64,000 bases of DNA from Halovivax gelatinilyticus (GCF_024300625.1 NZ_CP101322.1:2121992-2185991), one strand, 5' to 3'; counted from the first letter of the stretch, positions 1,666 through 45,949 are shown. Notes: a model not told the origin generated them from the letters alone. Program-made: numbers and translations.

Positions 1666-1798
1666 CCGGAGGAAGCGAGAGTTCCACGGGTCACCCGACC
1701 CGTGGTTGGTTACCCGGAGGCAGGGCCGTGACGAGCATAAAGTGGTTGTTATACCCACCCGAGCACCGAACTGTGGGTGTACGCTACCCCGATGTACG

Positions 1799-2104: not shown

Positions 2105-2254
2105 CGCCGCTCGCGACCTCCCGCCGTGTGGGCCGCGTTGGCACTCACGGACGTTGACTCCCAGCCGCCGATCCGGGTGATCGTCGTCGGACACTCCGGT
2201 CGACGCGCGACGGTTCGCGAACTGTGCGTCGCGCACACTCGGGGCGCAACCCGT

Positions 2255-2665
2255 TCACTCCAGCTCTTTGTGCCGAGCGTGTTCGACCAGTTCCTCTAAC
2301 GCCGGATGTGGTTCGTATCGAATTAGTCCCTGCGCTGGATCGTACTGGCACATTCCCGCATCCGCCAGTCGCGGGAGATGAACGTTGTGCAAGTCGATTT
2401 CGATGGTCCGTCGCGGGGGCCGATCGCCGGTATCCGTTCCGGCGGCTTCGTACGCCTGGATCGCATTCGCGGCCGCTTCGAGTTCGACGACCGTCTCGTC
2501 CGCAGTGCGCAAGTAGTACAACAGGTACCGTCGACGGGCGCTCGCTAACAGCTCGTAGATGCAATCGAGAGACTCGGTGACCGCCTGATGACGGGTTAGC
2601 GAGGCGAGATCGGGACTCCCGTCGTCGCTCGTTCTACCCGAATCCGGACCCCCTCCGTCAGCCAT
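2255..2665 (-). CDS. DUF7344-type winged-helix protein
   Basis: 136 residues. It shares with the gene at 1799-2104 the layout of a helix ending in RRRYLLYYLR, a variable loop and a DLHNVHLPRLADAGMCQYD wing, which is the DUF7344 signature. The N-terminal 25 residues are acidic and probably disordered. Likely a transcriptional regulator; the target is unknown. The divergent region on its 5' side (2666-2906) contains no gene that I can support. Confidence 0.75.
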   Translation of the reverse strand: MADGGGPDSGRTSDDGSPDLASLTRHQAVTESLDCIYELLASARRRYLLYYLRTADETVVELEAAANAIQAYEAAGTDTGDRPPRRTIEIDLHNVHLPRLADAGMCQYDPAQGLIRYEPHPALEELVEHARHKELE

Positions 2666-6081: not shown

Positions 6082-6243
6082 ACCGGGTTACGCGACTCCC
6101 TCGAATCGGTTGCCTTCGTCCTGAACGTCGCCTTTCGCCGGTCCAATGGCCGATCGTTGACGGTCGTGGGAGTTTCCACTCCTCATTCGAATCAAATATA
6201 GGAAATTCTATACGTATCCGCGAACGAAACGCATACGTCGAGA

Positions 6244-6336
6244 ATGAAGGTTCTCTGGGAGTGTTCTGGGTGCGGGAAAACGGTGAACGGGGCGGTAAAT
6301 GGGGATCGGTGTCCGTACTGTCGCGTCGATCGGTGA
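6244..6336 (+). CDS. 30-residue zinc-ribbon microprotein
   Basis: A short ORF with two Cys pairs, CSGCGK and CPYCR, spaced as in the CPxCG-type small zinc-finger proteins that are widespread in haloarchaea and have been linked to stress, motility and biofilm phenotypes. AT-rich TATA-like stretches at 6194-6200 and 6206-6212 lie 32-50 nt upstream. Four cysteines in 30 residues in the correct zinc-knuckle order make chance unlikely. Function is unknown. Confidence 0.7.
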   Translation: MKVLWECSGCGKTVNGAVNGDRCPYCRVDR

Positions 6337-6454
6337 CTCGAATCGGACGGTCGACCGGGTAGCGGTCGGACCGCTGTCCGACGGCTTCAGACCACGACGA
6401 CGGCGCTGAAAGGTCGGCCGCGATGGAGCGCCCGCTGGTTCGGGTTTTCGGCTT

Positions 6455-6545
6455 TCATATCCGTTCCCCGACCGCGTAGTGGCGTTCCGCGATCTCGCTG
6501 TCGTCGACCACGGTGTCCACCAGCCGGGGCGGGGTTCGGTCGGAC
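6455..6545 (-). pseudogene. C-terminal relic of a RibD/DHFR-like reductase
   Basis: On the minus strand this stretch encodes a tail ending TVVDDSEIAERHYAVGERI then stop, closely matching the C-terminus of the gene at 7882-8403 (TTVDDSEIVELHYAVGERE). No upstream part of the reductase remains. It marks a lost paralogue or a duplication about 1.4 kb away from the surviving copy. Confidence 0.7.
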
Positions 6546-6633
6546 GCGTCCCCGAACGGAGCGATTCGAGAAGATCGAGTCGGTCGATTAGTGCGAGATT
6601 CAACACTTGAGAGGCATCAGAACGACGAGTTCG

Positions 6634-6879
6634 TTACCCTGCATACTCGAGGTCATCGGCGAACTCGGTATCGGTGTAGTGGCGCGGAATTTCGCGCTCG
6701 CCGAGAAGCTCGTGGAACTCCCGCTTCGACAGCTCCGCTAACGCACGCGCTTTACCGAACGAGAGGATGTCTCGCGCGTAGAGCGAGACGGCCAACTCTT
6801 GCTTTACCGTCCGGGACCGATCTCCCTCGGGAAGCTGCATGGCCTCGTACACTTCCTCGTCGATCTCGATCGTCGCCAT
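6634..6879 (-). CDS. UPF0175-family antitoxin-like protein
   Basis: 81 residues. The core ELAVSLYARDILSFGKARAL followed by the helix ELSKREFHELLGEREIP and a Tyr-containing acidic tail is characteristic of UPF0175, small RHH/HTH-like proteins usually encoded next to a PIN-domain toxin. Here no PIN gene lies downstream; only the reductase relic follows. It therefore looks like an orphan antitoxin, or one acting on a toxin elsewhere. The start at 6879 is the only ATG before the conserved N-terminal strand (MATIEIDEEVYEAM). Confidence 0.75.
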   Translation of the reverse strand: MATIEIDEEVYEAMQLPEGDRSRTVKQELAVSLYARDILSFGKARALAELSKREFHELLGEREIPRHYTDTEFADDLEYAG

Positions 6880-7008
6880 GCGTGCCAGTAGGACGACTCG
6901 ATTATTGAGTGTTTGGCCCTGCCATCCTCGTGGACATTGTGACTTGTGCCGACTGCTCGATGGATCCTCGTTATCTCCTCGGGTGTCGAGTCATCCCCGA
7001 CTGCGAAT

Positions 7009-7149
7009 TCAGTTCTCAGACTTTTCGGCGGTCACTTCGTCGTCACCACCGTCTTTCTGGAGCGATTCCATTGCCACGCGGGGTCCGTCGTCGTCAATCT
7101 CGATCGCGTCCGATTTCTGTACGTCGAGATATGGTTTCTCCTCGGTCAT
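7009..7149 (-). CDS. short acidic protein, unrecognised
   Basis: 46 residues from ATG 7149, with a composition typical of soluble haloarchaeal proteins (Asp/Glu-rich). The frame stays open to 7284, but the extra part is less acidic. No motif is recognised. It fills most of the interval between the UPF0175 and VapB genes; the rest (6880-7008 and 7150-7317) holds only the VapB promoter. Confidence 0.35.
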   Translation of the reverse strand: MTEEKPYLDVQKSDAIEIDDDGPRVAMESLQKDGGDDEVTAEKSEN

Positions 7150-7287
7150 TAGGTTACAATCAGAGGCTGGGGGTAAAGAACCCTCAAAATGAGTCGAGAA
7201 CAAACCACGTTCGGCCGTCCTGTAGTGTTCTGATCTTGGGTGGCGGTTTTCGATCACGCTATACTCAATCGTCTCATGAGCCAAACT

Positions 7288-7296
7288 CTTATACTA
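7288..7296 (+). promoter_or_regulatory. TATA box of the VapB-like gene
   Basis: CTTATACTA lies 22-30 nt before the ATG at 7318, fitting a leaderless archaeal transcript. Confidence 0.55.
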
Positions 7297-7317
7297 ATTC
7301 TACACATATGTATAGGC

Positions 7318-7542
7318 ATGAGTGTGGATAGAAAATCGATCCCGGTTTCGATCCCCGAAGGGCTGGTCGACGAACTCGATCAACTCGTTGCGGAGGGGAA
7401 GTTCGGTTCGCGGTCGGAAGCACTCCGATACGGGGCCCGGCTGGTGGCTCGTGAATCCCAGATGAAACGCCTCCACGAGGAGACGGCTCACCGGGCGGCC
7501 CAGGACGTCGAGGATCGACTGGAGCGAAAACGTGTACGTTGA
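7318..7542 (+). CDS. RHH antitoxin (VapB/CopG-like)
   Basis: 74 residues. The N-terminal strand KSIPVSIPEGLVDELDQLV and the helix FGSRSEALRYGARLVARE form a ribbon-helix-helix DNA-binding unit. The charged C-terminal helix (RAAQDVEDRLERK) is where such antitoxins grip the toxin. The reading frame is intact and has its own TATA box, but the toxin that overlaps its last 11 nt is truncated (7532-7627). It may survive as a DNA-binding orphan. The same C-terminal segment appears in the relic at 4876-4996. Confidence 0.75.
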   Translation: MSVDRKSIPVSIPEGLVDELDQLVAEGKFGSRSEALRYGARLVARESQMKRLHEETAHRAAQDVEDRLERKRVR

Positions 7543-7627
7543 TACTGACGTCGTGCTCGCGGCGCTGAAAGATGACGATTGGCTGTCCTCGGCCGTCGAC
7601 CTCGACGTGATTCAAGCGCCAACCTGA
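7532..7627 (+). pseudogene. truncated PIN-domain (VapC-like) toxin, N-terminus only
   Basis: From a GTG overlapping the antitoxin by 11 nt, 31 codons are read before TGA. They give VYVDTDVVLAALKDDDWLSS, the first strand and catalytic Asp (D4 or D6) of a PIN ribonuclease. A full PIN domain needs about 130 residues, so about 100 are missing and the other acidic residues are lost. The toxin cannot be active. Confidence 0.7.
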
Positions 7628-7665
7628 AGTAAATCGTTAATTCCTCTGGTTCCTACTACACGGCT

Positions 7666-7869
7666 ATGGAGGACGTACCCCGGACAGAAGACCGATCTCT
7701 TGACCGCCCGTTTCTCAGCTCGTCTCGGGCCGCCGGGATTCGGACACAGATGGAGACGTTCGTCTCGGAGCATCAACCGGCGGATCCGAAGGACGTCAGA
7801 GCGTCGATTTCCACCACTGGTGACGATCTTTCTCGTTTCGTCGACCGCGAGCGCGATGGGCGTCGCTAA
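7666..7869 (+). CDS. hypothetical small protein
   Basis: 67 residues from ATG 7666; hydrophilic, with mixed Arg and Asp, no membrane segment and no motif I recognise. The preceding 40 nt are AT-richer than average (TAAATCGTTAATTCC). Support is only an open frame and composition; it could be non-coding debris in the relic region. Confidence 0.3.
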   Translation: MEDVPRTEDRSLDRPFLSSSRAAGIRTQMETFVSEHQPADPKDVRASISTTGDDLSRFVDRERDGRR

Positions 7870-7881
7870 TCCACCGGGTGT

Positions 7882-8403
7882 TTACTCGCGTTCCCCGACC
7901 GCGTAGTGAAGCTCCACGATTTCGCTGTCATCGACCGTGGTATCCAGTAGTTCGAGCGGCCGCCGTCCGTCCCCGTCCGAGAACAACGCAATACCGTCTC
8001 CAAGGAGGATCGGAACGAGCGACAGTCGGAGTTCGTCGATCGCGTCCGCCCGGAGGAACGCCTGGACGAGCTGTGCGCCGCCCACCAGCCAGACGTGGTC
8101 GTCGCGCCGTTCGAGGTCTGTTGCGACGGTCTCGACATCGTCGACGAACTCGACCGAATCCGTCGCGGACGGGAGGTCCCGGTGGGTGAACACGTACGTC
8201 GGTTTCTCGCCGTAGGGTCACTCGCCGAACCCGAGCACCTGTTCGTACGTCGTCGCGCCCATCACGAGACAGTCGACCGAATCGAAGAACGCGGCGTATG
8301 CCTCGCCGTCGGATTCGAACCCCTCCAGCCAGTCGACGCCGCCGTCCAGGTCCGCGAGGTAGCCGTCGACACTCGTCGCCACGTAGCAGGTGATTCGGCC
8401 CAT
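7882..8403 (-). pseudogene. RibD C-terminal/dihydrofolate-reductase-like protein with one internal stop
   Basis: The minus strand encodes a complete 173-codon member of the RibD-C/DHFR-like family: MGRITCYVATSVDGYLAD at the N-terminus, DCLVMGATTYEQVL for the cofactor fold, VWLVGGAQLVQAFL and the C-terminal VDDSEIVELHYAVGE. A single TGA at 8218-8220 interrupts it in frame exactly where relatives usually have Trp (GFGE-[W]-PYGEKPTYVFTHR), so TGG probably became TGA. Everything else is in frame, so the lesion is recent, is read through, or is a sequencing error. Family members reduce pterin- or flavin-like substrates with NADPH. Confidence 0.8.
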
Positions 8404-8488
8404 GCGATTCGTACGGTTGAGAGGGTAATAGCACTCGCCACGGCTGGCTCGATGGATTTTGGGCCGATTATTCCCTAATAGCGATAGA

Positions 8489-8497
8489 TAATTATAT
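8489..8497 (+). promoter_or_regulatory. TATA box before the structured RNA
   Basis: The run TAATTATAT stands about 25 nt before the first base-paired nucleotide of the hairpin array at 8523, in a stretch with no protein start nearby. Confidence 0.5.
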
Positions 8498-8517
8498 GGT
8501 GCTTCAGGTTAACTGTT

Positions 8518-8665
8518 TGAACGGAAGCCACGCTCCCGCGGCCAGGGGGACATACGAGAAATGTCCCGGGTGTTAGGGCACCCGAGACGTGGCTTCCAAA
8601 TCCCATGTGGGGGATTTTGGTCGCCATGTTACGCTACAAACCTTCGAGACAAAAAGGTCTCGCAC
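8518..8665 (+). ncRNA. candidate structured non-coding RNA (hairpin array)
   Basis: Five perfect helices can be drawn by eye. A closing stem pairs GGAAGCCACG (8523-8532) with CGTGGCTTCC (8588-8597). Inside it sit GGGACAT/ATGTCCC (8547-8553 with 8561-8567) and GGGTG/CACCC (8568-8572 with 8579-8583), giving a three-way junction. After it come AAATCCC/GGGATTT (8598-8604 with 8611-8617) and CGAGAC/GTCTCG (8645-8650 with 8657-8662). A TATA box lies at the right distance. The region has no convincing ORF. It could be an independent RNA gene or the structured end of a lost IS200/IS605-type element; no transposase or TnpB remnant is visible. Confidence 0.55.
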
Positions 8666-8744
8666 GCCCGTGGTACCGTAAGCAACTGCTATTCGTCGAA
8701 ATTCTCTTGGATTCTAACGCGGTTTGGCCATGGGAGGTGGATGG

Positions 8745-9014
8745 ATGACGGGCGAGGTTCGTAGCGAGTCGTCGGCGAGTCGACCGTGCTACCGCTGCGG
8801 TGATTCAGTTGCCGAGGAGTGGATCGTTCGACTCACGGCGACGCATGGTGACGCGAGTGCCGGCTGGTATCGGGATTCTGAGCGGGAGCTGTGTCTCGAC
8901 TGCATCGCCGGGATCGGGATGTTGGAACTGGAAGCGGAGGGTTCGTCGGACGATGAAGTGAATGAACGGTCTGTTCGCGATCGACTTGGAGCGGTTCGGT
9001 CAGCGACTGATTAG
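8745..9014 (+). CDS. small zinc-ribbon protein
   Basis: 89 residues. ATG 8745 is chosen because a GGAGGTGG Shine-Dalgarno-like run ends 4 nt before it; an in-frame ATG at 8730 is the alternative. Two Cys pairs, CYRCGD and CLDC, about 40 residues apart, form a zinc ribbon around EEWIVRLTATHGDASAGWYR. The tail is acidic. Haloarchaeal zinc-ribbon proteins of this size are common and mostly uncharacterised; DNA or protein binding is likely. Confidence 0.65.
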   Translation: MTGEVRSESSASRPCYRCGDSVAEEWIVRLTATHGDASAGWYRDSERELCLDCIAGIGMLELEAEGSSDDEVNERSVRDRLGAVRSATD

Positions 9015-9637
9015 ATTCGTTCTACTTCGATTTGCCACCGTGACTCACTGGTTCTGTGAACACGAGTATTGAATCCTTCTGGAATTAGTGAATTAAACTC
9101 GGTTCTTTATCTTCCTATTCAGTTTGAGGTCGGGTGACTCGGCGCCACACGAAATTTGTCCTGCTGCCCTCCCCTATGTGAACACAGTATCCATGTTCTC
9201 GTGTGCATATTCGTAAAATGGTCTCTGGCGAGCTGTAACTCCAAGGGATCACGGATCGATCACGGATTCTATATCCAAATCCAGCGAAAGTATAATATTC
9301 CATAAGAATTTTTTAGGATTATGAACAAAATCCGGTTCCTGGTTGGATGAAGGCTGCGGGTGTAGCGCTATTTTTCCTCTTCATAATCGCAACGATGTAT
9401 ATGTGGATTCTTCCGCTGATCTGAAGCGGTCCTTTCCACTCAAAGTGAACCTCCGTTTCACCTGTTTCATGTGGACCATCCGTTTCAGAAGGTAATCTGT
9501 CGAGGAGGCAGGGAGGGGCCGGTGTAATTTTTTTGCCTCTGTCCCCTTGGGGACACGCCGTGCGGTGCTGTCGCGGTAGCTCGCCTATTCCAGTCCCCAC
9601 CCAAACCTACCTATAATATCAATACAATCACCTGTTC
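9015..9637 (+). other. AT-rich intergenic region between the zinc-ribbon and HNH genes
   Basis: About 620 bp, clearly richer in A/T than the surroundings, with no protein of normal size. It contains a 25-codon hydrophobic ORF (9347-9424), a T7 run at 9528-9534 that could end a plus-strand transcript, and a near-perfect palindrome TGTCCCC-TT-GGGGACA at 9540-9555. Minus-strand frames at 9115-9303 and 9319-9600 are open but show no haloarchaeal composition. Confidence 0.5.
9347..9424 (+). CDS. possible single-span membrane microprotein
   Basis: 25 codons from ATG to TGA; residues 4-25 are almost entirely hydrophobic (GVALFFLFIIATMYMWILPL), one membrane span after a single Lys. A stop lies 10 codons upstream in frame, so no longer version exists. 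A T7 run follows 100 nt later. No homologue comes to mind; composition is the only support. Confidence 0.3.
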   Translation: MKAAGVALFFLFIIATMYMWILPLI

Positions 9638-10420
9638 ATGGGTGTCGTTCGCAGAGAGGGAGACTGGCGACTCGAAAAACGGAGAGACGGAGTTTACCAG
9701 ATCACGTTCCGTACGGAACCGCAACTCAACGTCTATACACCTGACGCGTCGCGATTGCGCAACCAACCGCTGTTCGAGGCCGTCCCGACCTATGACGTTG
9801 GCTCGTATTCGGAAGTGGAAGGGCTCTTCGAGGAGAAGGCGCACGGTCCGCCGCCGCTCGGGATGGCGTCACCGGCAAACGGCCCGACCGGCCGCGCGTC
9901 GACCGAGTCCGACGACCTCGATCTTGACGACGTCCCACCGATCGGAATCAGCGTCGCCTTCTTGCTCGTCGGCGGGTTCACTATCTACACGTTCTGGGGC
10001 ACCACCAACACCATCGCGCTTCTCTTCGGCCTGGGATTTCTCGCGCTCGGACTCCTCCCGCTCGGCTACGCCGCCTATCGGTTCAACGCGGACGGCTGGC
10101 GAGCCGCCGCCGAATTCCTCGTCACCGTCGAGGCGAACGACGACACCGCCGAGGACACGACGAAAACCCCGCCAGCCCCGAAGAAACTCAAGAATGCCAT
10201 CATCTTCGACCGCGCCGACCAGCACTGCGAGTGGTGTGAGAATCCCTTCGACTTCCTCGAGGTTCACCACATCGTACCGCGGAGCGAGGGCGGCCCGAAC
10301 GACCCGGGAAACCTCGTCGCGCTCTGTCCCAACTGCCACGAGAACGCCGATCGCGAGGCCATCCCCCGCTCGAAGATACAGGCGAAGGTGAGGCGACTCC
10401 CGGCGGTGTCGGTCGACTGA
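9638..10420 (+). CDS. membrane-anchored HNH endonuclease
   Basis: 260 residues with three parts: a soluble N-terminal ~100 residues, two membrane spans (about 102-120 and 125-147), and a C-terminal HNH nuclease. The nuclease has zinc pairs C197/C200 and C230/C233 around the catalytic HHIVPRSEGG (His210-His211), N225 and H234. HNH domains nick DNA or RNA with a divalent metal. Placing one behind a hairpin of membrane helices suggests action on DNA entering or leaving the cell, or a membrane-tethered defence effector; that is inference. The neighbours give no operon context. Confidence 0.8.
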   Translation: MGVVRREGDWRLEKRRDGVYQITFRTEPQLNVYTPDASRLRNQPLFEAVPTYDVGSYSEVEGLFEEKAHGPPPLGMASPANGPTGRASTESDDLDLDDVPPIGISVAFLLVGGFTIYTFWGTTNTIALLFGLGFLALGLLPLGYAAYRFNADGWRAAAEFLVTVEANDDTAEDTTKTPPAPKKLKNAIIFDRADQHCEWCENPFDFLEVHHIVPRSEGGPNDPGNLVALCPNCHENADREAIPRSKIQAKVRRLPAVSVD

Positions 10421-10523
10421 TGAACTCCTTACTTTTCCCGAGCGGCAACCGTCGTGTACACGCAGCGTTGTCGGGTGTCCTGTGAGGTAGGGAAACGGGT
10501 GTACCGACGGGTTTAGAACCCCT

Positions 10524-31471: not shown

Positions 31472-34400
31472 ATGACAGAGTACGGACTCGAGGAGTTCAT
31501 CCTCCTGGCACTTGCCGAGCGCGAACGCGCTTCGGTGCCGGCGGAGCCGACGGCGGTGACGCCGTCATCCCTGGGTGACGTGCTTACGCTCTCGCAAACG
31601 GTCGCAGACCGCCTCTCCCTTCTCTCTGCACTTTCGACGCTCACCAGCTCGGGACTCGTCGAGGAGACGACCGAGACGCTCGACGGTCGAGCGGGTGAAC
31701 GAAGCCTCTACCGCCTCAGCGAAGCGGGACGTTCCCGCGCGAACGAACTGTTCGAATCGGTCGCTGACGAACCGGTCACCGTCTACGATGGCGACGACCC
31801 TTTCGAGTGCCGGATGGGGGCGCTTCCGGACCGTATCGGGGTGAGCGTGACGAACGCGCTGGTTCGCCGTTCGCCCGACCGAAGTCTCACGCTCGAAGAG
31901 TCGGTCGACCAGCGGTTCGTCGGTCGGCAGTCTGCGATCACCGCGCTCGAATCGGCGTTAGACTCGGCTCGGAACGGGATTCCCCAAACGCTCGTCGTGA
32001 CGGGCGACGCCGGCGTCGGAAAGACGACGCTGGTCGAATCGTTCGTCGACCGATACTGCGACGATTCCGTAGACGTCCGATTCGGTCGGAGCCTCCGCGA
32101 CGGCGGGCAGGCCTACGGACCGCTCGTGGAGGCGATCGGCGGCGCGATAGGTGATTCGCCCCTCCTGTCCGATGGCGTGGCTCCCGACCCTGATGACGCC
32201 GAATCCTACCAGGCGCAACTCTCGGCGTTCTACAACGACGTGACGTCGGCGATTGAATCGCACGCGAGAGAGACGCCGACCGTCCTCATCGTCGAGGACC
32301 TCCAGTGGGCTGATCCAGCAACGGTCGAGTTACTCACCCACGTCGCGACCACGGTCGAAGACGCGTCACTGTTACTCGTCGCGACGTATCGCCCATCGCG
32401 TGTCGGTGACGAACACCCGTTCGTCGATTCGATCGACGAAAACCGGTTCGTCGAACTCCGGGTCGATCCCTTCGATCGAACGGAGACGGCCGCCCTGATC
32501 GAGGCGGAACTCGGTCGCCGTGGCGTTCCCGACGCGTTCGTCGACGGCGTGTACGATGGAACCGGTGGGAACGCCCTGTTCGTCGTCGAAACGGTGGCGA
32601 GCCTCCTGGAATCGGGCGCCCTCGACCCGCGAGTCGACCGATACCCGGACACGGTCGAAGCCGAACAGATACCAGACGTCGTCGAGACGACGATCGAACG
32701 TCGATTCGATCGGTTAGACGACCGAACGGAACGGGTGCTCTCCATCGGTGCCGTGCTCGGCAGTCCAATTCCGGAGGACGTACTCATCGAAGTCGTTTCT
32801 CGTTCAGAACCAGCGGTTCGAGAACGCATCGAGTTGCTCGTCGACGGCGGCGTCTGGCGCCGGAGCGACGACGGTGATCTGCTATTTCGAAGCGAGGTGC
32901 TCCGATCGGCGGCGCTCGACCGCCTCGCCGAAAATCGCCGCCGGACACTCCACGCGACGGCTGCCCGGACGCTCGCCGCGGCCGAGGCAGATCCGGCGAC
33001 GATCGCAACGCACTTCGAACGTGCTGGTGACGCTGAGAACGCACTCGAATACCATCAGCAGGCCGCCGACGATGCCGTTGCCGTCTACGCCCACGACGTG
33101 GCAATCGAACACTACGAGCGAGCACTCTCGCTGGCACGAGACGCCGATCGGGACGAGTTCGTCCTCGACCTGCTCGAATCGATCGGAGACATCCACTCGA
33201 CTCGCGGCAGGTATGACGAGGCTAAAAAGCACTTTCGATACGTCAGAGAGCGAACCGACGATCCGGAACGAGTTCGCCGAAGTTACCGCTATCAGGCGGA
33301 GATGGCCTTCAAACGTAGCAAATACGACGAGGCCGAGGAGTACGCCCGTCAGGGACTCGACGTCGGTGGAGACGAGATAACTGAGGAGGTGTGTCGACTC
33401 ACCGATCAGCTCGGCGGTGCATACTTCGGTCGTGGGCAGTTCGAGGAAGCCATCGAGCACCACGAACGTCTTCGCGACCGATCCGCCGAAATCGGCTTCA
33501 CCCTCGGTCGCGGTCGCGCCAATCAGAACCTCGGCTGTTGTTACGGGGACCTTGGCGAGGCGGATCGTTCGGTCGAACTCCTAGAGCGCGGGGCGAGACT
33601 GCTGGAAACGGTCGGCGACGAGGGGGAACTTGCTGGTTGTTACAACGATCTCTCGATCGCGTACGACCGAGTTGGCCGGTACGACGACGCCATTGAGACG
33701 ATGGAAGCGTGTCTCGACGTCGCAGAGCGGACTGAACAAGTCATGGTGATCAGGCTCGCTAAGGCGAACCTCGCATTGTACGCCCTGCGGCGAGGCGAGT
33801 GGGAACGCTCGCGCGAGTTTTTCGAGGGAGTCGAAGAAATCGCCCGCCGCGTCGACGACCGACAATCGCTCTCGATAGCTGTCTGGCTCGATAATTCGAT
33901 CGAACTCGAAGTCGGCCACGTCGACGACGCTATCGTTGGCTTCGAGCGGGCCCTCGAGATTGTCCGCGAGACCGAAGCGAACCACCGTATCGCCCTGTAC
34001 GAGTGGGGGATTGCACAGGCGAACTTTCTCGCTGGCAACTTCGACCGGACGATCGATCACATCGAGCGAGCGGTCGATATCGCGACAGAGCACGAGTATA
34101 CGCGCATACTCGGCGCGTGTAAATCCGTTCGTGGGAGCGTCGAGCGCGAACGTGGGGAAGTCGAGCGTGCGATTACCCTCCAGCGAGAGGCGGTAATCCT
34201 CGTCGCGGATGTGGACGACGAGCACGTTCTTCCGCTCAGACAGATGCGCCTCGCCAGGACGCTGTGTCGGGCGGGCGAAACTGAGGAGGCGCTCGAACTC
34301 GCTCGAGCCGCGTCTGAGGGGTGTCCGGACGGGGACGCATTGATGTCGGTAAAGATCGAAGCGACCAACGGAGCCGCACAGCTCGCCGCGGGTGAGTACG

Positions 34401-34645
34401 ACACGGCCCGCGAGACACTCGAGTCGGCCGTTGAACGCGCGCGGGGGCTGTCGAACGAGGCTCGCCTTTACGCGCTCTGTGAACTCGGTCGCCTCGAGAT
34501 CGAGGTGGGCAACGACGATGCCGCCCGCGGTCGACTCGAGGAGGGGCTTCGCCTCGTCGAAGAGAGCGGAATCGCCGTCTACGCCCCTCGGCTAGAGGAG
34601 TTACTCGCGACCGTCGAGCGCGAGCCGTCGGTGACCGGCGACTAA
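31472..34645 (+). CDS. large wHTH-STAND ATPase-TPR signalling protein 2
   Basis: 1057 residues, the same architecture as the gene at 26891-30076: winged helix (1-95, LSLLSALSTLTSSGLVEETT), NTPase with Walker A GDAGVGKTT (178-186) and Walker B VLIVEDLQWAD (271-281), then TPR-like repeats to the end (AIEHYERALSLARD, YDEAEEYARQGLDVG, RETLESAVERARGL). Sequence divergence from paralogue 1 is considerable outside the ATPase core, so the two may respond to different ligands. Codon use is slightly less GC-biased than in copy 1. Confidence 0.88.
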   Translation: MTEYGLEEFILLALAERERASVPAEPTAVTPSSLGDVLTLSQTVADRLSLLSALSTLTSSGLVEETTETLDGRAGERSLYRLSEAGRSRANELFESVADEPVTVYDGDDPFECRMGALPDRIGVSVTNALVRRSPDRSLTLEESVDQRFVGRQSAITALESALDSARNGIPQTLVVTGDAGVGKTTLVESFVDRYCDDSVDVRFGRSLRDGGQAYGPLVEAIGGAIGDSPLLSDGVAPDPDDAESYQAQLSAFYNDVTSAIESHARETPTVLIVEDLQWADPATVELLTHVATTVEDASLLLVATYRPSRVGDEHPFVDSIDENRFVELRVDPFDRTETAALIEAELGRRGVPDAFVDGVYDGTGGNALFVVETVASLLESGALDPRVDRYPDTVEAEQIPDVVETTIERRFDRLDDRTERVLSIGAVLGSPIPEDVLIEVVSRSEPAVRERIELLVDGGVWRRSDDGDLLFRSEVLRSAALDRLAENRRRTLHATAARTLAAAEADPATIATHFERAGDAENALEYHQQAADDAVAVYAHDVAIEHYERALSLARDADRDEFVLDLLESIGDIHSTRGRYDEAKKHFRYVRERTDDPERVRRSYRYQAEMAFKRSKYDEAEEYARQGLDVGGDEITEEVCRLTDQLGGAYFGRGQFEEAIEHHERLRDRSAEIGFTLGRGRANQNLGCCYGDLGEADRSVELLERGARLLETVGDEGELAGCYNDLSIAYDRVGRYDDAIETMEACLDVAERTEQVMVIRLAKANLALYALRRGEWERSREFFEGVEEIARRVDDRQSLSIAVWLDNSIELEVGHVDDAIVGFERALEIVRETEANHRIALYEWGIAQANFLAGNFDRTIDHIERAVDIATEHEYTRILGACKSVRGSVERERGEVERAITLQREAVILVADVDDEHVLPLRQMRLARTLCRAGETEEALELARAASEGCPDGDALMSVKIEATNGAAQLAAGEYDTARETLESAVERARGLSNEARLYALCELGRLEIEVGNDDAARGRLEEGLRLVEESGIAVYAPRLEELLATVEREPSVTGD

Positions 34646-38008: not shown

Positions 38009-39193
38009 CTAGATCTGGTTCCAGGCGTCTTCGTCGTCGGGGTCGATGTCGGCTGGGCGTTCGTCCGGCGCGCGGTCGGTTTCGTGGGAACGGTCCGCGT
38101 CGAACGGCGGATCGAGGGGTGCGTTCGCACCGACGCCCGTCGGGGTGTACTCCTCGTCGGATCCGTCGTCGAGTTCCATATTCGGCCAAGCCGTTTCCTC
38201 CCAGAGTCCCCGGTCGGTGTAGTAGTAGACCACGTCGTCGGTGACGGCGGCGAACAGCCCGCGCTGACGGTCGTGGACGACCCGGTTGTTGGTGTCGATC
38301 GCGACGTCGACGACGTCTTCTAGGGTGTCGAGGGCGATGTGGTGTTCGCCAACCCACATCGGGATCGACCCGCGCGAGATCCACTCGGCGTAGCGCCGCT
38401 CGTGGACGGCCCGGCGGGCGGTTTTTTCGTCGACCGGCGCCCGCTGGTTCAGCGCCCACGCGGCCCCGAGCGCGCCGGAGCCAAACAGCGCGAAGAAGCC
38501 GATGAACGCCAGGCTTCGCGAGTCGGTTTCGGTCACGAGCTGGGTCTCGGTCTGGGGATCGTCGACCGTCGGCGTCGGATCGTCGAGCCAGGCGGCCCGA
38601 TCGGTCGCGACGAACTCGGTTTCGAGGGCGAAATCGCCGGAGGCCGACCCGGTCCTGTAGTGGGTCTCGACTTCGACGACCGTTCTGACCTCACCGATGC
38701 CGTCGACGTGGCGTTCGACCGTGCGCTGCTGGTCGAGTACGTCGGCAATATCCACGTCGACGGCGCTCGAGGCGACCCCGTCGGTCACGTTCGCTTCCGT
38801 TCGTTCGAGCGTCTCACGATCCTCCCAGAACACCGCGTCGTCACGAACCGCTTCGTGGCGTAGCGCGACGTCGTGGAGTATCTCCCCGTCGCCCGACGAG
38901 ATCGTCGTTCTCGGTGCGAGCGTGATCGTCGACGTAGCGTTTCGCAGGTAGACGGGCTCGTTCGAAAGCTCGGTCCCTTCTGGCCAGAGGCCGTCCGATT
39001 CGACGACCGCGCTCGTCTCGAGCGTCGTCTCGACGTTCTCCAGCTCGACCTGTTGGCTGACCGTCTCTTCGTTCGGTGATGCGACGGCCCAGCCGCTTAC
39101 GGCCAGCGAGAGAACGCCGACGATCGCCAGTGCGACGAGCAGCGTGCGTCCGTACCTGGCGAGCAACAGGTCGATTCTCGGATTGTCTACCAT
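38009..39193 (-). CDS. DUF5305-family membrane protein
   Basis: 394 residues. An N-terminal span (~16-36) anchors a ~190-residue extracellular beta-rich domain (STITLAPRTTISSGDGEILH, DQQRTVERHVDGIGEVRTVV). A second span (~228-246) leads to a cytoplasmic domain with IALDTLEDVVDVAIDTNNRV and an acidic tail. DUF5305 genes are found next to S26 signal peptidases in haloarchaea, as here: the signal-peptidase gene lies 120 bp upstream on the same strand. The role is likely assembly or control of the exported proteins of this cluster. Confidence 0.8.
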   Translation of the reverse strand: MVDNPRIDLLLARYGRTLLVALAIVGVLSLAVSGWAVASPNEETVSQQVELENVETTLETSAVVESDGLWPEGTELSNEPVYLRNATSTITLAPRTTISSGDGEILHDVALRHEAVRDDAVFWEDRETLERTEANVTDGVASSAVDVDIADVLDQQRTVERHVDGIGEVRTVVEVETHYRTGSASGDFALETEFVATDRAAWLDDPTPTVDDPQTETQLVTETDSRSLAFIGFFALFGSGALGAAWALNQRAPVDEKTARRAVHERRYAEWISRGSIPMWVGEHHIALDTLEDVVDVAIDTNNRVVHDRQRGLFAAVTDDVVYYYTDRGLWEETAWPNMELDDGSDEEYTPTGVGANAPLDPPFDADRSHETDRAPDERPADIDPDDEDAWNQI

Positions 39194-39313
39194 TCAGTCA
39201 CCCCCCGGGAACCCACACCTGGTGGGTTCTCGTTCGATCCCCCGATCGAATGAATTCCGGTTATCCGTCCGTATGTATTTCAAACTCATAATCGTACTGG
39301 CCTATATTCCTCC

Positions 39314-40498
39314 TTATCGAAGCCAATTGCGGGCTTTTCGTTTAATCCGAACGACGCTCGGAACGTGTGAGCCGGGTCGGCGAACCCTGAGGTCTGCCCA
39401 CCCGAACAGCGCGAGGACGAACCCGACCGAAGCGCCGACGATGACGCCGTTGACGGCGGCGACGGCCAGATACGGGTGGACGTCGTGCAGGCTCCCGAGC
39501 AGCGACGGTGGAAGCACCGCGAGGTACCGGTACTCGCTCACTGTCCGAAGGTACTGGCCCTCGGATTCCGGGGCGGAGAGGGCCACCAGCGTCTCCCCTT
39601 GCGAGCGCCACCCGACCGTCTGAGACGACGGTTCGACGGTGACGCCGCCGCTTGCGGCCTCGGTTCGGACGACGACGGGGACGTAGCCGGCGTTGTCGAC
39701 CGTTCGTGTCAGCGTCCCGGTTTCGCCCGGCGCGAGCACCTGCGGATCGTCGGTCGGACTGTCGGTGCTGACGACGTCGTAGGCGGTCGTCCCCGACGGA
39801 ATCACCATCGCGGCCGTCGCGAGCGTGACGAGGACGAGTAGCACGAGCCCGATCACGACCCAAATCGCGATCACGTTCTCGCGCGAGTACGACCGCGTCG
39901 TCTCTCTGCGAGCCGGTCCGGCGCGATCGAACAGGATGCCGAAGCCGAACAGGGCGACGCCGATCGCGACGAGCATCGCACCCGCTCCCTCGCCGTCGAG
40001 TTCGCCGGGGACGCCGGCCACGCTCGCGAGTCCGTCGACGATCGACTCGACCGTCGCGCCAATGCCCATCACGAACGTTCCGAGGTGCGAGATCGTTACG
40101 ACGCTACCGCGAACGTCGAGGGCGGTCGCGACGACCTGTCCGTCGGTCACCGGCGGTTCGCCCGCGTCCTGATCGGTGAACGGATTGGCATCACCTTTCG
40201 TCACGTAGCCGTCGTCGGTCACTGCGACGACCCGGTGGGTCGTCAACTCGCCCTCGTTTACCTCCCGGGCCTCGAAGACGATGACGTCTCCCTCGGAGAT
40301 GTCCCCCGACAGCGCGTCGGGTATCGCGACGAACCCGTCGCCGGTGTCCATCTCGGGTTCCATACTTCCCGAGGCGACGTACCCGAGCAGGATCGGCTGA
40401 CCGAGCAGCTGGCCGAGCAAGAGCAGCGCTACGACGACGGCGAGTGCGATCCCGGCCCCTCGCGTTACGTATTCGATCGTGCGCACGGTTTTCCCCAA
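39314..40498 (-). CDS. ER-type S26 signal peptidase with long C-terminal membrane extension
   Basis: 394 residues, double the usual size. The catalytic part has Ser45 (ASGSMEPEM) and His88 (TTHRVVAV), the Ser/His pair of SipW/SEC11-type peptidases rather than the bacterial Ser/Lys pair. Box E is KGDANPFTDQD. After residue ~165 come three further spans and an extracellular beta domain (TGTLTRTVDNAGYVPVVVRT). In Bacillus SipW a single ER-type peptidase matures the TasA fibre protein; the nearby secreted DUF1102 genes suggest the same division of labour here. Confidence 0.88.
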   Translation of the reverse strand: MGKTVRTIEYVTRGAGIALAVVVALLLLGQLLGQPILLGYVASGSMEPEMDTGDGFVAIPDALSGDISEGDVIVFEAREVNEGELTTHRVVAVTDDGYVTKGDANPFTDQDAGEPPVTDGQVVATALDVRGSVVTISHLGTFVMGIGATVESIVDGLASVAGVPGELDGEGAGAMLVAIGVALFGFGILFDRAGPARRETTRSYSRENVIAIWVVIGLVLLVLVTLATAAMVIPSGTTAYDVVSTDSPTDDPQVLAPGETGTLTRTVDNAGYVPVVVRTEAASGGVTVEPSSQTVGWRSQGETLVALSAPESEGQYLRTVSEYRYLAVLPPSLLGSLHDVHPYLAVAAVNGVIVGASVGFVLALFGWADLRVRRPGSHVPSVVRIKRKARNWLR

Positions 40499-40642
40499 TC
40501 CATCCGACCCTGACCCCTCAGGTTGGTCGAGAGTCCGTTCTATACTGATTTAGCTCCTGTGGCAGGCAAGGGCTGCTATCCGCATTCAGTAACCCCTTGT
40601 AGCGTCTGATTTCCACTTTCAAAAGAAATTGGCCTTCCCAAT

Positions 40643-41500
40643 TTAGATTCGTCGCCTTCGAACGACGCTCGCGGCGACGACCAGCCCGAGCGTCGCCGGC
40701 GGGGCGACGGCGGCGGTCAGCGGCGAGGCGAGTTCGACGGAGCCGAATCCGGTGGCGGCCGCGTCCGAGACGGCGACGCTCCCCGCCGGCGCGTCGGCGA
40801 CGTGAACGTCGTAGACGCCGGTGGCGTCGGGCGTCCAGATGAACGAGACGGTTCGGTTCTCACCGGGTTCGAGCGTCAGCTCTCGGTCGGCGACGACGAT
40901 GCCGTCGATCGCGAGGGGGAGGGTCCCCGTCGCAGGCTCCGCGCCCGGGTTCGACACCGTGGCGGCGACTGAAACCGGCTCGCCGGCGGTGACGGTCGTC
41001 GCGTCGACAGAAGCATTACTCACGTTGAGCGGACCCGCGTCCGGGAGTGCTTCGTCTTCATCCTCGTCATCGTCGTCTTCAGTCCCGACGACGATCGAGA
41101 ACGTCTCGCTGCCGGGCTGGGCCCGACTGGTGTCGACCGAGACGCCCACGGTCGCCGACTCGCCCGGATCGAGCCTGAGCGGACTCGTCCGCGAGAGGGA
41201 GTTGGACGGATTCTCGTGCGCGTAAAAGCGGACGCCCTGCAGATCGTGATCGATCCAGATCTCGTCCGCGTCGTCGTCCGTCGCCGTGATCTCGAAGACG
41301 TCGTGGGTTTCAGTCGTCGCCTGTTGGTTGAGCCGGTCGAAGTCGAGGGTGAGCTCGCCGTCTTCGATTGTGGCGTACTCGCTCGTTGCGGAGAACTCGA
41401 CGCCCCCGGGGGAATCAGTATCCGACACGGAGATGGCCGCGGTTGGGACTACGAGAAGAAGGGCGAGCACCGTGGCTATTACGAGGAGACGGAGTTGCAT
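40643..41500 (-). CDS. secreted CARDB-domain surface protein
   Basis: 285 residues. Signal peptide at 1-22 (LLVIATVLALLLVVPTAAI). A beta-rich first domain contains DESTINE-like Tyr/Asp strands (EIWIDHDLQGVRFYAH), and an acidic hinge (DDDDEDEDE) follows. A CARDB/APHP-type Ig fold comes next (GEPVSVAATVSNPGAEPATG, ENRTVSFIWTPDATGVYDVH). A C-terminal span followed by RRRR anchors it in the membrane. It lies between the signal peptidase and the DUF1102 gene on the same strand and is probably part of the surface system. Confidence 0.75.
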   Translation of the reverse strand: MQLRLLVIATVLALLLVVPTAAISVSDTDSPGGVEFSATSEYATIEDGELTLDFDRLNQQATTETHDVFEITATDDDADEIWIDHDLQGVRFYAHENPSNSLSRTSPLRLDPGESATVGVSVDTSRAQPGSETFSIVVGTEDDDDEDEDEALPDAGPLNVSNASVDATTVTAGEPVSVAATVSNPGAEPATGTLPLAIDGIVVADRELTLEPGENRTVSFIWTPDATGVYDVHVADAPAGSVAVSDAAATGFGSVELASPLTAAVAPPATLGLVVAASVVRRRRI

Positions 41501-41551
41501 CTATTTGGGGGCTAGGAAGGTGGTTAGTAGTTTACTGAGACGATTCCATTC

Positions 41552-42073
41552 CTATTCTGCCACAATTTCGATATAATCAATTTCTTCTACGTCTTTCGCT
41601 TCGGTGTCGAATTGGAAACCGATATCAACGGAATTATCCTCGCTGTCATGTTCGAGGGTTTCTAGGGGTTCGGCTGTGTCATTCGGGTCATCGCCCACAT
41701 AGGCCTGGAACCGATCTCCAACGTCTGTGTCGTACTCGTCATATGCGGTGATACTGACTCCTACATCATCATTTCCATTATTGGTTATGGTAACCAGATT
41801 ATGGAAGTTGGTTTCCGCCTCATCGTTTAATCCAACTCCACCATCTTCTCCGAAATTGAAACTAACTACGCCATTTTCTTCAACAAATTCTTCGTCATCT
41901 TCACGGGACGAGTGAACCTCAATAGATAGGTAGGCTTCATCGTCATCCGCTACATGAACTTCGACATCACGTTCTGCAGTCACACTACTAAACGCGCCCG
42001 TCCCGAGGAGCGCGCCGCCGCCAGCTACGATTCCGCCCAATCCGACCAGTACGTTGCGTCTGTTCATTCTCAT
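41552..42073 (-). CDS. exported DUF1102 protein, candidate TasA-like fibre subunit
   Basis: 173 residues. The leader MNRRNVLVGLGGIVAGGGAL ends in GTGAFSSVTAERDVEVHVAD. The twin Arg suggests Tat, and the GTGAF-S...AER pattern resembles SipW-dependent leaders of TasA/CalY proteins. The mature part is an acidic beta sandwich (AYLSIEVHSS, NNGNDDVGVSITAYDEYD). DUF1102 is a known archaeal family of unknown function. With its neighbouring ER-type peptidase it fits the matrix-fibre model. It is less GC-rich than the flanking genes. Confidence 0.8.
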   Translation of the reverse strand: MRMNRRNVLVGLGGIVAGGGALLGTGAFSSVTAERDVEVHVADDDEAYLSIEVHSSREDDEEFVEENGVVSFNFGEDGGVGLNDEAETNFHNLVTITNNGNDDVGVSITAYDEYDTDVGDRFQAYVGDDPNDTAEPLETLEHDSEDNSVDIGFQFDTEAKDVEEIDYIEIVAE

Positions 42074-42278
42074 GGTGTGTTGCTCCCACCCTCGGTTGAG
42101 TGGTTTCTACTCGATACCAGCCATCCTACCCCCTTTGTATTGAGTAACGAGAAAATGGATAGCTCTCATAGAACGTGGTTCAAGGGCCGCTTGAGCCGAT
42201 TTTTCAAAACCTGAAACCGTCGTCGGCCCAAACGAATTAATACTGATCTTCCCTATACTCTCATCCACACTGGGGGGT

Positions 42279-42824
42279 GTGACGGTGAATGCGCTGACAG
42301 GTACTGACCACGCGAGCCGGGGAGATATTTTCGGCCTGCTTAGCAACCGCCGTCGACGGTACACGATCCACTACTGCAAACAGGTGGGCGAACCGGTCTC
42401 GCTGGGCGAACTGGCCGAGCAGGTGGCCGCGTGGGAACTGGATAAGGAGATCGCCGAGATCACCTCGGCCGAACGAAAGCGCGTCTACACCGCCTTACAG
42501 CAGTCGCACCTGCCGACGCTCGAACGGGCGAACGTCATCGAGTTCGACAATCACACGATCGAACTCACCGACGAGGCGGACGCGCTGGAGATCTACTTGG
42601 ACATCGTCCCGGCGGACTCGATCCCGTGGGGCGTCTACTACCTCGGCCTGTCGCTGCTCGGATTCGTGGTGCTCGGTGGGATCTGGATCGACGCGGTGCC
42701 GACGGGGACGGTTCCCGCGCTCGGCTGGGCGGCGATCGTCCTGGTCGCCGTCGCCGTCTCGGCCGTCACGCACGTGATAACGAGTCGGCGCTACCGACTC
42801 GGAACGATGGAGCGACCGCCGTGA
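42279..42824 (+). CDS. membrane-anchored DUF7344 winged-helix protein
   Basis: 181 residues from GTG 42279. The DUF7344 HTH (DIFGLLSNRRRRYTIHYCKQ, LQQSHLPTLERANVIEFDNH) occupies 1-110. Two spans follow (~112-134 and 141-160) with a short basic end. Membrane-bound regulators of this type are typically encoded beside DUF1102/signal-peptidase clusters and probably report on envelope state. It is divergent from the DUF1102 gene and only 13 nt before the next secreted-protein gene, with which it is likely co-transcribed. Confidence 0.8.
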   Translation: MTVNALTGTDHASRGDIFGLLSNRRRRYTIHYCKQVGEPVSLGELAEQVAAWELDKEIAEITSAERKRVYTALQQSHLPTLERANVIEFDNHTIELTDEADALEIYLDIVPADSIPWGVYYLGLSLLGFVVLGGIWIDAVPTGTVPALGWAAIVLVAVAVSAVTHVITSRRYRLGTMERPP

Positions 42825-42837
42825 TGGGGTTGGACAG

Positions 42838-43710
42838 ATGATCGGGGGTTCGCTTTCGAAGCTGGGACTGGTGCTGGTGGTCGCTGGAGCCCTGGTGCTG
42901 GCCGGCCCCGTCTTCGGATTCAGTACGTTCGCGGCGGACCGCGGTGTGAGTGTCAGTACGGCGGAAGATCCGAATGCCATCTTGGGGATTGATATGGCTG
43001 ACAGTGTCGAACTTGACGATTCGGATGTGTTAGTCGCAACTCTGACTAACAACATCGGATCCGAGATCGATACACTCGATGTCGATATTCAATCGGGAAT
43101 TCTGACGGTATCGAGTGGATTTTCCGACCAACTTAGCGAGGGAGAGTCGACACAACTGTATGTTGAATGTGGTGATGCCTCAGGACCGGGTTCACAAGAC
43201 ATCTCTATTACTATCGAAGAGGCGACTTCTTCGGATTCAGGACTCACAATTTCACGAAATACCGTTACAACGAAAGTTGAATACGATTGTGGTGGTCGAG
43301 ATACTGATGGAGATTTCATCATTACTGATGTAAGAATGAATGATAACTCCGTCGAATTTGATATCGAGAATATCGGTACCTCAGTAGATCTTGGGGGAGT
43401 AAGTATTGACGAGACAACTACGCCAGCGACCGAAGTGAACAATGGAAACAATCCCGAAATACTAGTAGGGGAATCAGGGATCAACTCACATCCTGATTCA
43501 ATAATAATCAATGGTGAAATGCACGACTTCCATGGAGGGGATCGGCCAGAGATCGGTAATGAGGAAGAAGTGACGATTATCATTGAATCGTTTATGTCGG
43601 GTGAAGGATCGGGAGTTAACATGGAGGGAGAGACACTTTGGGTTACACTCTATGAACAGCAGGGTGGTGGAAACCCGGTTCAGCAGCTAGCGATATCAGA
43701 CGAAGAGTAA
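42838..43710 (+). CDS. exported DUF1102-like protein, second fibre-subunit candidate
   Basis: 290 residues. The signal peptide LVLVVAGALVLAGPVFGF is followed by FSTFAADRGVSVSTAEDPNA, which parallels FSSVTAERDVEVHVADDDEA of the protein at 41552-42073. The rest is beta-rich with two Cys (VECGDASG, EYDCGGRD) that may form a disulfide. From about base 42960 the gene turns AT-rich with many ATT/AAT/GGA codons, unlike its neighbours, suggesting recent transfer or fast divergence of the exposed part. Confidence 0.75.
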   Translation: MIGGSLSKLGLVLVVAGALVLAGPVFGFSTFAADRGVSVSTAEDPNAILGIDMADSVELDDSDVLVATLTNNIGSEIDTLDVDIQSGILTVSSGFSDQLSEGESTQLYVECGDASGPGSQDISITIEEATSSDSGLTISRNTVTTKVEYDCGGRDTDGDFIITDVRMNDNSVEFDIENIGTSVDLGGVSIDETTTPATEVNNGNNPEILVGESGINSHPDSIIINGEMHDFHGGDRPEIGNEEEVTIIIESFMSGEGSGVNMEGETLWVTLYEQQGGGNPVQQLAISDEE

Positions 43711-43803: not shown

Positions 43804-44121
43804 ATGTCGACTACGACGATCAGCGAACGGGGCCAGCACCTCCGGTCGGTCGGGGTGACGGCGTCGTGTGCGCTCTTCGGCGTCGCCGCCGGCGTCATCT
43901 CCTACATCGAGATCGGAGAGACCGCCGCGGACGCCGGTAGCAGCCTGGGACTGGCGATCGCCGTCGTGGCTATTTTGATCCAGTACGCGATCATCAAGGT
44001 CTCGGGCGTCTACGACGAGGACGAGTTCGGCTTCAAACACTACCTCTACATCTCGTTTATGATCTTCGCCTTCTGGTTCGTGACGTGGGGAATACTGCTG
44101 ACCGAAACCTACCTGAACTGA
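43804..44121 (+). CDS. EMC6-like membrane protein
   Basis: 105 residues with three spans (about 17-36, 46-63, 79-99). The layout and LFGVAAGVISYIEIG with the FGFKHYLYISFMIFAFWFVT end agree with archaeal EMC6-like proteins, relatives of a subunit of the eukaryotic ER membrane complex that inserts membrane proteins. Only one base separates its stop from the ABCE1 gene, so they form one transcript. Confidence 0.75.
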   Translation: MSTTTISERGQHLRSVGVTASCALFGVAAGVISYIEIGETAADAGSSLGLAIAVVAILIQYAIIKVSGVYDEDEFGFKHYLYISFMIFAFWFVTWGILLTETYLN

Positions 44122-44122
44122 G

Positions 44123-45949
44123 ATGGCCGACGATAGCATCGCCGTCGTCGATCTGGATCGTTGCCAGCCCGACCGGTGTAACTACGAGTGTAAGAACTAC
44201 TGTCCGCCCAACCGCACCGGAAAGGAGTGTATCACCCTCCGCGGCGAGGACGCAGACGAGGGCGGGCCCGACCAGATTCGCATCTCCGAAGAGATCTGTC
44301 TGGGCGAGACCTGCGGTATCTGCGTCGAGAAGTGTCCCTTCGACGCGATCGAGATCATCAACCTCCCGCAGGAATTGCAGGACGACCCGGCCCACCGCTA
44401 CGGCGAGAACGCCTTCTCGCTGTACGGCCTGCCGGTTCCCCAGGAGGGGCAGGTCACCGGGATTCTGGGACCGAACGGGATCGGGAAGACGACGGCCGTC
44501 CGCGCGCTCGCCGGCGAACTCGAACCCAACCTCGGCCAGTACGCCGATCCGCCTGGCTGGGAGGCCGTCCTGGACGCCTACCGCGGAACGGAACTGCAAG
44601 ACTACCTCGCCGACGTCCGCGACGGCGACGTGACGGTCTCGCGAAAACCGCAGTACGTCGATCAGATTCCCGAGCAGTTCGACGGCAACACGCGCGAACT
44701 CTTAGAACGAACCGACGAGCGCGGCGCGCTCGATTCGCTCGTCTCTCGGCTCTCGATCGGACCCGTGATGGACCAGTCGATCGGCGACCTCTCGGGCGGC
44801 GAACTCCAGCGAGTCGCGCTGGCCGCCGCGCTTGCTCGCGAAGCCGACTTCTACTTCCTAGACGAGATCACGCCCTACCTCGACATCGGCCAGCGGGTGA
44901 CCGCGGCACGGCTGATCCGCGAACTCGCCGAAGAGGACGACAAGTCGATGCTGGTCGTCGAACACGACCTCGCAATCCTGGACTTGCTCTGTGACACCCT
45001 CCACGTCGCCTACGGTGAACCGGGCGCGTTCGGTGTCGTCACCGACCCCAAGTCGGTCAGAAACGGGATCAACGAGTACCTCGCGGGCTACCTCGAAAAC
45101 GAGAACATGCGGATCCGCCCGGACCGCATCGAGTTCGAAGAACACGCGCCGCGATCCGAATCGCGCGGCGAGACGCTCGTCTCCTACCCCGGCGTGCGAA
45201 AGTCCTACGGCGAGGGCGAGTTCGCACTCGAGGTCGAGGGCGGCGAGATCAGACAGAACGAGGTGCTCGGAATCGTCGGACCCAACGGGATCGGGAAGTC
45301 GACGTTCGCAAAGTTACTCACCGGCAGCCTCGAACCCGACGCGGTCGGTTCTGACGACGAATTCGACCTGGACCTCTCGATCTCCTATAAGCCCCAGTAC
45401 GTCACCATCGACCAGCCGATGCGCGTCGACGCCTTCCTCTCGTCGATCACCGACCAGTTCGGCTCGTCGTACTGGAACACGGAGATCGCAAACCCGCTCC
45501 AGCTCAATCGGATCATGGAGCAGAACCTCTCGGACCTCTCCGGCGGGGAGCGCCAGCGCGTCGCGATCGCGGCCTGTCTCTCCGATTCGGCCGATCTCTA
45601 TCTCCTCGACGAGCCGTCGGCCCACCTAGACGTCGAACAGCGGGTGCAGGCCACCCGGGCGATTCGCCGCTACGCCGAAGCCCAGGACGCGACCGTCCTC
45701 GTCATCGACCACGACATCTACATGATCGATCTGCTGGCAGACCGGCTGATGGTCTTCGACGGCGAACCCGCCGTCTCTGGCCGCGCGGGCACACCCCAGT
45801 CGATGCGCGGCGGGATGAACGACTTCCTCTCGAATCTCGAGATTACGTTCCGCCGCGACGAGCGCACCTCGCGTCCGCGTATCAACAAACCCGATTCGCA
45901 GCTCGATCGCGAGCAAAAACGCGAAGGCGAGTACTACTACGCGCCGTGA
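44123..45949 (+). CDS. ABCE1/RLI ribosome-recycling ATPase
   Basis: 608 residues, full length. Two [4Fe-4S] cysteine sets at the N-terminus (C14, C19, C23, C27 and the later CGICVEKCPFDAIE) are followed by two ABC cassettes: Walker A GPNGIGKTT with LSGGELQR, and GPNGIGKST with LSGGERQR, plus the ABCE1 hinge. The enzyme splits 70S ribosomes after termination together with aPelota. Universal in archaea, and adjacency to a membrane-insertion factor is notable. Confidence 0.95.
   Translation: MADDSIAVVDLDRCQPDRCNYECKNYCPPNRTGKECITLRGEDADEGGPDQIRISEEICLGETCGICVEKCPFDAIEIINLPQELQDDPAHRYGENAFSLYGLPVPQEGQVTGILGPNGIGKTTAVRALAGELEPNLGQYADPPGWEAVLDAYRGTELQDYLADVRDGDVTVSRKPQYVDQIPEQFDGNTRELLERTDERGALDSLVSRLSIGPVMDQSIGDLSGGELQRVALAAALAREADFYFLDEITPYLDIGQRVTAARLIRELAEEDDKSMLVVEHDLAILDLLCDTLHVAYGEPGAFGVVTDPKSVRNGINEYLAGYLENENMRIRPDRIEFEEHAPRSESRGETLVSYPGVRKSYGEGEFALEVEGGEIRQNEVLGIVGPNGIGKSTFAKLLTGSLEPDAVGSDDEFDLDLSISYKPQYVTIDQPMRVDAFLSSITDQFGSSYWNTEIANPLQLNRIMEQNLSDLSGGERQRVAIAACLSDSADLYLLDEPSAHLDVEQRVQATRAIRRYAEAQDATVLVIDHDIYMIDLLADRLMVFDGEPAVSGRAGTPQSMRGGMNDFLSNLEITFRRDERTSRPRINKPDSQLDREQKREGEYYYAP

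Follow-up and report, generated by a model that had tools for sequence, protein, structure and literature searches.

Which surface structure would be built by a locus that joins a signal peptidase to exported proteins with parallel leader ends, and does it belong with the SipW/TasA matrix system of Bacillus? The question was raised by an original prediction on a 64,000-nucleotide stretch of the Halovivax gelatinilyticus chromosome (GCF_024300625.1, NZ_CP101322.1:2121992-2185991 of 3.70 Mb; hereafter the window), in which positions 38009-43710 were read as a possible haloarchaeal fibre or biofilm matrix machine resembling SipW/TasA. With a probability of roughly 0.85, this locus encodes a Tafi-type pilus, i.e. 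a thin surface fibre whose subunits are joined by donor-strand exchange and which belongs to the broad class of Pyrobaculum bundling pili and TasA fibres. The locus is real and conserved; it would work like TasA/SipW and is not to be filed as that family. The fibre reading stands and the SipW/TasA resemblance is kept as an analogy only, because one exported protein, of 173 amino acids (aa), fits a Tafi pilin and the other, of 290 aa, is without a predicted TasA-like fold. Novelty is limited by the fact that a pilin of this kind already has a deposited structure.

Among PDB sequences the 173-aa protein displayed a single match, the 'Pilin' chain 9p0a_C (E = 1.4e-18), and a profile of its relatives matched the same chain with E = 2.4e-31 over nearly the full mature length. 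Entry 9p0a, released in 2025, is entitled 'Structure of Natrinema sp. J7-2 Tafi pilus'; statements on it rest here on this title and on the sequence, and a literature search gave no paper on Tafi pili or Taf names. The 174 residues of 9p0a_C available for comparison from the search output were identical to a protein of Natrinema gari (L104:7860-8537) encoded in a syntenic locus. That locus agreed in gene content and order with the one in the window; the only leader proteins encoded there were one pilin with an arginine pair (RR) in the leader and one TafC-type protein. In a peptidase tree, the enzyme of the window was grouped with Halovivax, Natrinema, Natronorubrum and other Natrialbaceae loci (support 98/99), and the second long peptidase of the same genome fell outside this group. 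As judged from sequence and gene position, the 173-aa protein corresponds to the 9p0a pilin. Via N. gari, the locus shared with the Natrinema Tafi pilus the homologous pilin position, the peptidase clade and the six-gene set, but pilin identity was low beyond the leader and the first strand.

AlphaFold, run on a 39-row alignment, gave a mostly beta model for the mature 173-aa protein (predicted local distance difference test, pLDDT, 75; predicted TM-score, pTM, 0.70). When this model was compared by Foldseek with 350,542 PDB chains, the first rank was taken by Pyrobaculum bundling pili (AbpA, 7ueg), the second by 9p0a and the third by the Sulfolobus thread (7pnb), a donor-strand fibre. No sequence match was displayed with AbpA and no sequence relation was found with the Sulfolobus threads. 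The ranking of three archaeal fibres at the top is telling for a predicted model whose superposition was poor; a first strand swinging into the neighbouring subunit would explain the latter. TasA was absent among the top 50 structural matches. The long N-terminal helix of type IV pilins was not in the mature model, which was composed of strands and a single three-residue helical turn, and the peptidase of the cluster was of class I and not of the prepilin type. The 9p0a match, the gene order of N. gari and the first two structural ranks together supported the predicted haloarchaeal fibre machine.

The original prediction had placed a peptidase, a DUF5305 protein, a CARDB protein, two exported proteins and a membrane-bound DUF7344 protein in one locus, and all six open reading frames and their domain matches were confirmed within window positions 38009-43710. 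From left to right, the locus reads as follows:

38009-39193, minus strand: DUF5305 membrane protein, 394 aa (PF17231, E = 2.2e-41)
39314-40498, minus strand: long signal peptidase of the endoplasmic reticulum (ER)/archaeal, Ser/His type (TIGR02228, 64.8 bits; cut-off 51.85)
40643-41500, minus strand: TafF-like subunit with a CARDB domain, 285 aa (CARDB 8.7e-11, DUF1102 4e-4, TafF 3e-6)
41552-42073, minus strand: predicted pilin, TafE-like, 173 aa, with a leader of the twin-arginine translocation (Tat) type (PDB 9p0a_C match; TafE 6e-23, under the curated cut-off)
41993-42073, minus strand: leader peptide MRMNRRNVLVGLGGIVAGGGALLGTGA of the 173-aa protein, with the RR motif
42074-42278: intergenic stretch between the pilin operon and the divergent regulator gene, presumed control region
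42279-42824, plus strand: DUF7344 regulator with two C-terminal transmembrane helices (115-133 and 145-163; PF24035, 5.2e-28)
42838-43710, plus strand: TafC-like accessory subunit, 290 aa, leader without RR, first strand FSTFAADRGVSVST (TafC 5.7e-12, under the cut-off)

The four leftward genes formed one run with gaps of about 50-145 bases, from which the DUF7344 and 290-aa genes were divergent. The DUF5305 protein would be an assembly partner of the signal peptidase, and the DUF7344 protein presumably binds DNA.

Co-occurrence of these genes in other haloarchaea was borne out. Of 116 sampled Halobacteria genomes, 89 had the long peptidase, and these represented 34 of 45 genera. Nineteen orthologous loci all displayed DUF5305 directly downstream; a pilin-type gene was present in 18 of them, DUF7344 in 17 and all six genes in 15. 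Each of the 61 named loci with enough flanking sequence had a pilin-type neighbour, and most had DUF5305 (55) and DUF7344 (57), the nearest DUF7344 gene lying on the strand opposite to the peptidase in 56 of these 57. Gene content and order were conserved across families, and the gene set is not due to chance. The Halovivax genome had just two DUF5305 copies, and each of its two long peptidases had one of them as neighbour. DUF7344 alone was weak evidence and was set aside as specific evidence, since the genome held about 32 copies; two convergent regulator genes of the DUF7344 type were encountered at window positions 1613-2665. A typical haloarchaeal pilus locus was also seen in a record titled as a Mollicutes bacterium metagenome-assembled genome (L145), which is likely a mislabelled or contaminated bin.

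The leaders of the two exported proteins had been described as having parallel ends. This held from the leader end onward, where a single profile (A5) covered both proteins; the resemblance was mainly restricted to that part because just the 173-aa leader is of the Tat type and displays RR. Among relatives, RR was found in the leader of 99 of 105 TafE-type proteins and in none of the 34 TafC-type proteins. The predicted start of the mature 173-aa protein is at about F28 (FSSVTAERDVEV). Searched against the whole genome, the leader profile retrieved six proteins, all at the two long-peptidase loci (two here and four at the second cluster), a recovery that is expected because the profile was built including them. 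The informative part is that nothing else in the 3.7 Mb came close: the next match had E = 0.003 and was itself situated at a third peptidase locus. A phenylalanine was invariant at the predicted mature start of the pilin and 290-aa families in the alignments made, and the invariant alanine and arginine nearby are less biased signs, because alignment rows were cut at the phenylalanine. Mature subunits of these two families are predicted to start with a strand motif F-S/T-x-V-x-A-D/E-R-x-V-x-V.

Several points weigh against the pilus reading. No filament has been seen in this Halovivax. The strand motif was displayed by 102 of 105 TafE-type and 32 of 34 TafC-type proteins, counts that are partly circular since that stretch was the main means by which these proteins had been identified; its near absence from TafF-type proteins (2 of 55) is free of that circularity. 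Structural similarity was modest, with Foldseek E-values of about 0.003-0.02 and low TM-scores of 0.32-0.55 (0.55 for 9p0a; 0.37/0.31 for AbpA). Matches to the NCBIfam Taf fimbriae remained far under the curated cut-offs (TafE 81 of 155 bits, TafC 45 of 410, TafF 26.6 of 420), and a TafA-type pilin was missing at the window locus. The N. gari pilin matching 9p0a was likewise under the TafE cut-off (77 against 155) and also fitted TafE better than TafA. The best fimbrial matches of the three window proteins were each to a different family: TafE for the 173-aa, TafF for the 285-aa and TafC for the 290-aa protein. TafA genes adjoined long peptidases of the same family; in a comparison of coordinates for 15 genomes, every one had its TafA pilins (E <= 1e-25) no more than about 5 kb away from a long peptidase, and therefore Taf fimbriae and the window locus belong to one broader system.

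These assignments bear on an alternative in which the 173-aa protein is an adapter only, the shaft is made of pilins from the second cluster (C1:2412000-2422000) and accessory subunits or a second peptidase come from the window locus. The best NCBIfam match of the 173-aa protein is indeed TafE, a 'fimbrial adapter', and not TafA, and the second cluster (L009:4224-14024, C1:2412223-2422023) has its own long peptidase, DUF5305, DUF7344 and four leader proteins. However, the N. gari locus encoding the 9p0a-matching protein has likewise one RR-leader pilin gene only, with the same preference for TafE over TafA; the minimal gene set is found in most Natrialbaceae loci; and each cluster is equipped with its own peptidase, DUF5305 and regulator. 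A mere adapter is thus unlikely. One leader protein of the second cluster, of 555 aa, resembled the pilin at its N-terminus only.

The pilus reading assigns distinct parts to the remaining exported proteins. In the model of the mature 290-aa protein, confidence was high only from about residue 15 to 130 (pLDDT 83-94 at 21-120); the first 14 mature residues, i.e. the shared strand, were of low confidence and the tail was poorly predicted. According to Foldseek the confident domain was a sandwich of the immunoglobulin (Ig)/PapD type and not a TasA jelly roll, so that the expectation of TasA-like folds apparently failed for this protein, whereas the 173-aa model appeared to resemble archaeal donor-strand pilins. 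Matches of the 290-aa protein within its own genome were confined to residues 20-61. A match to a toxin component of the PDB was at chance level (E = 0.035), and a weak match of the family profile to acyltransferase left-handed helices probably arose through bactofilin-like tails of relatives and not through the window protein. Such tails were observed in Natrinema, where proteins at the TafC position (L104:2857-3903, similar in L101 and L105) displayed C-terminal bactofilin/FapA-like repeats, in contrast to the 290-aa protein, which was without them; with these repeats, a pilus subunit is predicted to carry a polymer-forming fold on the outside of the cell.

The CARDB protein displayed a cleavable signal, a pilin-like domain without N-terminal donor strand, the CARDB domain, a C-terminal transmembrane segment and an RRRR tail. 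The stretch preceding CARDB resembled DUF1102/TafF. Its TafF-type relatives aligned with the pilin body without the first strand of the latter and had a C-terminal transmembrane segment in 51 of 55 cases. The simplest reading of these sequences would be a set of three subunits, with the 290-aa protein as donor only, the 173-aa protein as both donor and acceptor, and the 285-aa protein as an anchored acceptor only. The CARDB protein would then be the acceptor or base of the fibre, and the 290-aa protein may either sit at the tip or start the chain. Splitting donor strand and acceptor body over three subunit types makes fibre polarity directly testable.

The exported proteins might instead form an amorphous matrix or act as single-copy surface adhesins and not as a helical pilus. 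Pilin relatives diverged fast (26 % mean column identity), as is found in exposed adhesins, and acidic exported proteins can presumably be matrix components. This is nevertheless quite improbable, given that a filament structure has been solved for a protein at the corresponding position and that a common first strand on different bodies is what strand exchange is expected to produce.

The long peptidase displayed an N-terminal transmembrane segment, the catalytic domain, a second segment, a basic cytoplasmic loop, a third segment, some 115 external residues and a fourth segment; the flanks of the four segments followed the positive-inside rule. Ser45, His88 and Asp103/Asp109 were invariant in the alignment. 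The start was uncertain, being either TTG at 40498 or GTG four codons later at 40486. The extension was kept in most long-peptidase matches among haloarchaeal genomes, which mostly aligned nearly over their full length, and no Pfam match was found for the ectodomain of the window protein. A role of the extension in assembly would be plausible. Tentatively, and with considerable doubt, the long peptidase could itself be an assembly machine in which the additional transmembrane segments, the ectodomain and DUF5305 hold the cut subunit and pass on its strand, coupling cleavage to polymerisation. That the enzyme serves general house-keeping, its neighbours being unrelated exported proteins, is hardly credible: haloarchaea do carry several signal peptidases and four were found in this genome, but only two of these are long, the two others lie elsewhere, only the long ones are linked with DUF5305 and the leader type, and gene content and order kept across families run counter to such a function.

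For the Tafi-type pilus the following course may be proposed. The 173-aa pilin would be exported by its twin-arginine leader and the 290-aa protein by a leader of the Sec type. Both would be cut at the conserved phenylalanine by the dedicated long peptidase, freeing an N-terminal strand that would complete the beta sandwich of the next subunit. With its strand on a different body, the 290-aa protein would start or cap the chain, and the CARDB protein would receive the last strand and anchor the fibre through its membrane tail. DUF5305 and the peptidase ectodomain would be the likely site of assembly, and the membrane-bound DUF7344 protein may regulate the divergent operon. Any role in adhesion or biofilms would likewise be putative. 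For this pilus type, the pilin structure was all that was found here. The present proposal ties to it, in most haloarchaeal genera sampled, DUF5305, a membrane regulator and a dedicated peptidase whose ectodomain is conserved. DUF5305, the DUF7344 subgroup and CARDB proteins with a membrane tail thereby gain testable roles.

What remains of the likeness to SipW/TasA is the logic of the system. In Bacillus subtilis, residues 28-38 of TasA are the donor strand completing the next subunit, and TapA, whose N-terminus resembles this strand, nucleates the fibre (PMC9674648). With an aromatic residue (Phe) at P2', the cut site of TasA is poorly processed by Escherichia coli LepB and is handled by the dedicated ER-type SipW (PMC10269814). 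The pattern of an aromatic cut site beside a dedicated ER-type peptidase appears alike here, and an N-terminal strand is common to the main and accessory subunits of both systems. The tapA-sipW-tasA locus differs in that the window locus has a Tat pilin leader, a long peptidase ectodomain and DUF5305 and DUF7344 partners. As a family assignment the SipW/TasA claim did not hold: the TasA/camelysin family PF12389 had no Pfam match in the locus, neither in the 173-aa nor in the 290-aa protein, and the SipW model scored 44.5 bits on the window peptidase, far under its cut-off of 190. A third locus of the same genome (L011:4324-7437, C1:1818323-1821436) comes nearer to SipW/TasA proper than the window locus does. 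It encodes a short signal peptidase, a DUF7344 protein whose divergent gene overlaps the peptidase gene, and a camelysin-like (PF12389) Tat protein with the leader end GTSAYFSD.

Elsewhere in the window, positions 43804-45949 held a gene for an EMC6-like membrane protein and, directly behind it, a double-ATPase gene reading like ABCE1. A protein of 1057 aa at 31472-34645 combined an AAA_16 ATPase with many TPR repeats, in the architecture of MalT-like regulators. The stretch 6000-10500 had a lower GC content (0.56-0.58) and few convincing genes, one product being HNH-endonuclease-like (9638-10420), and may be a decayed insertion.

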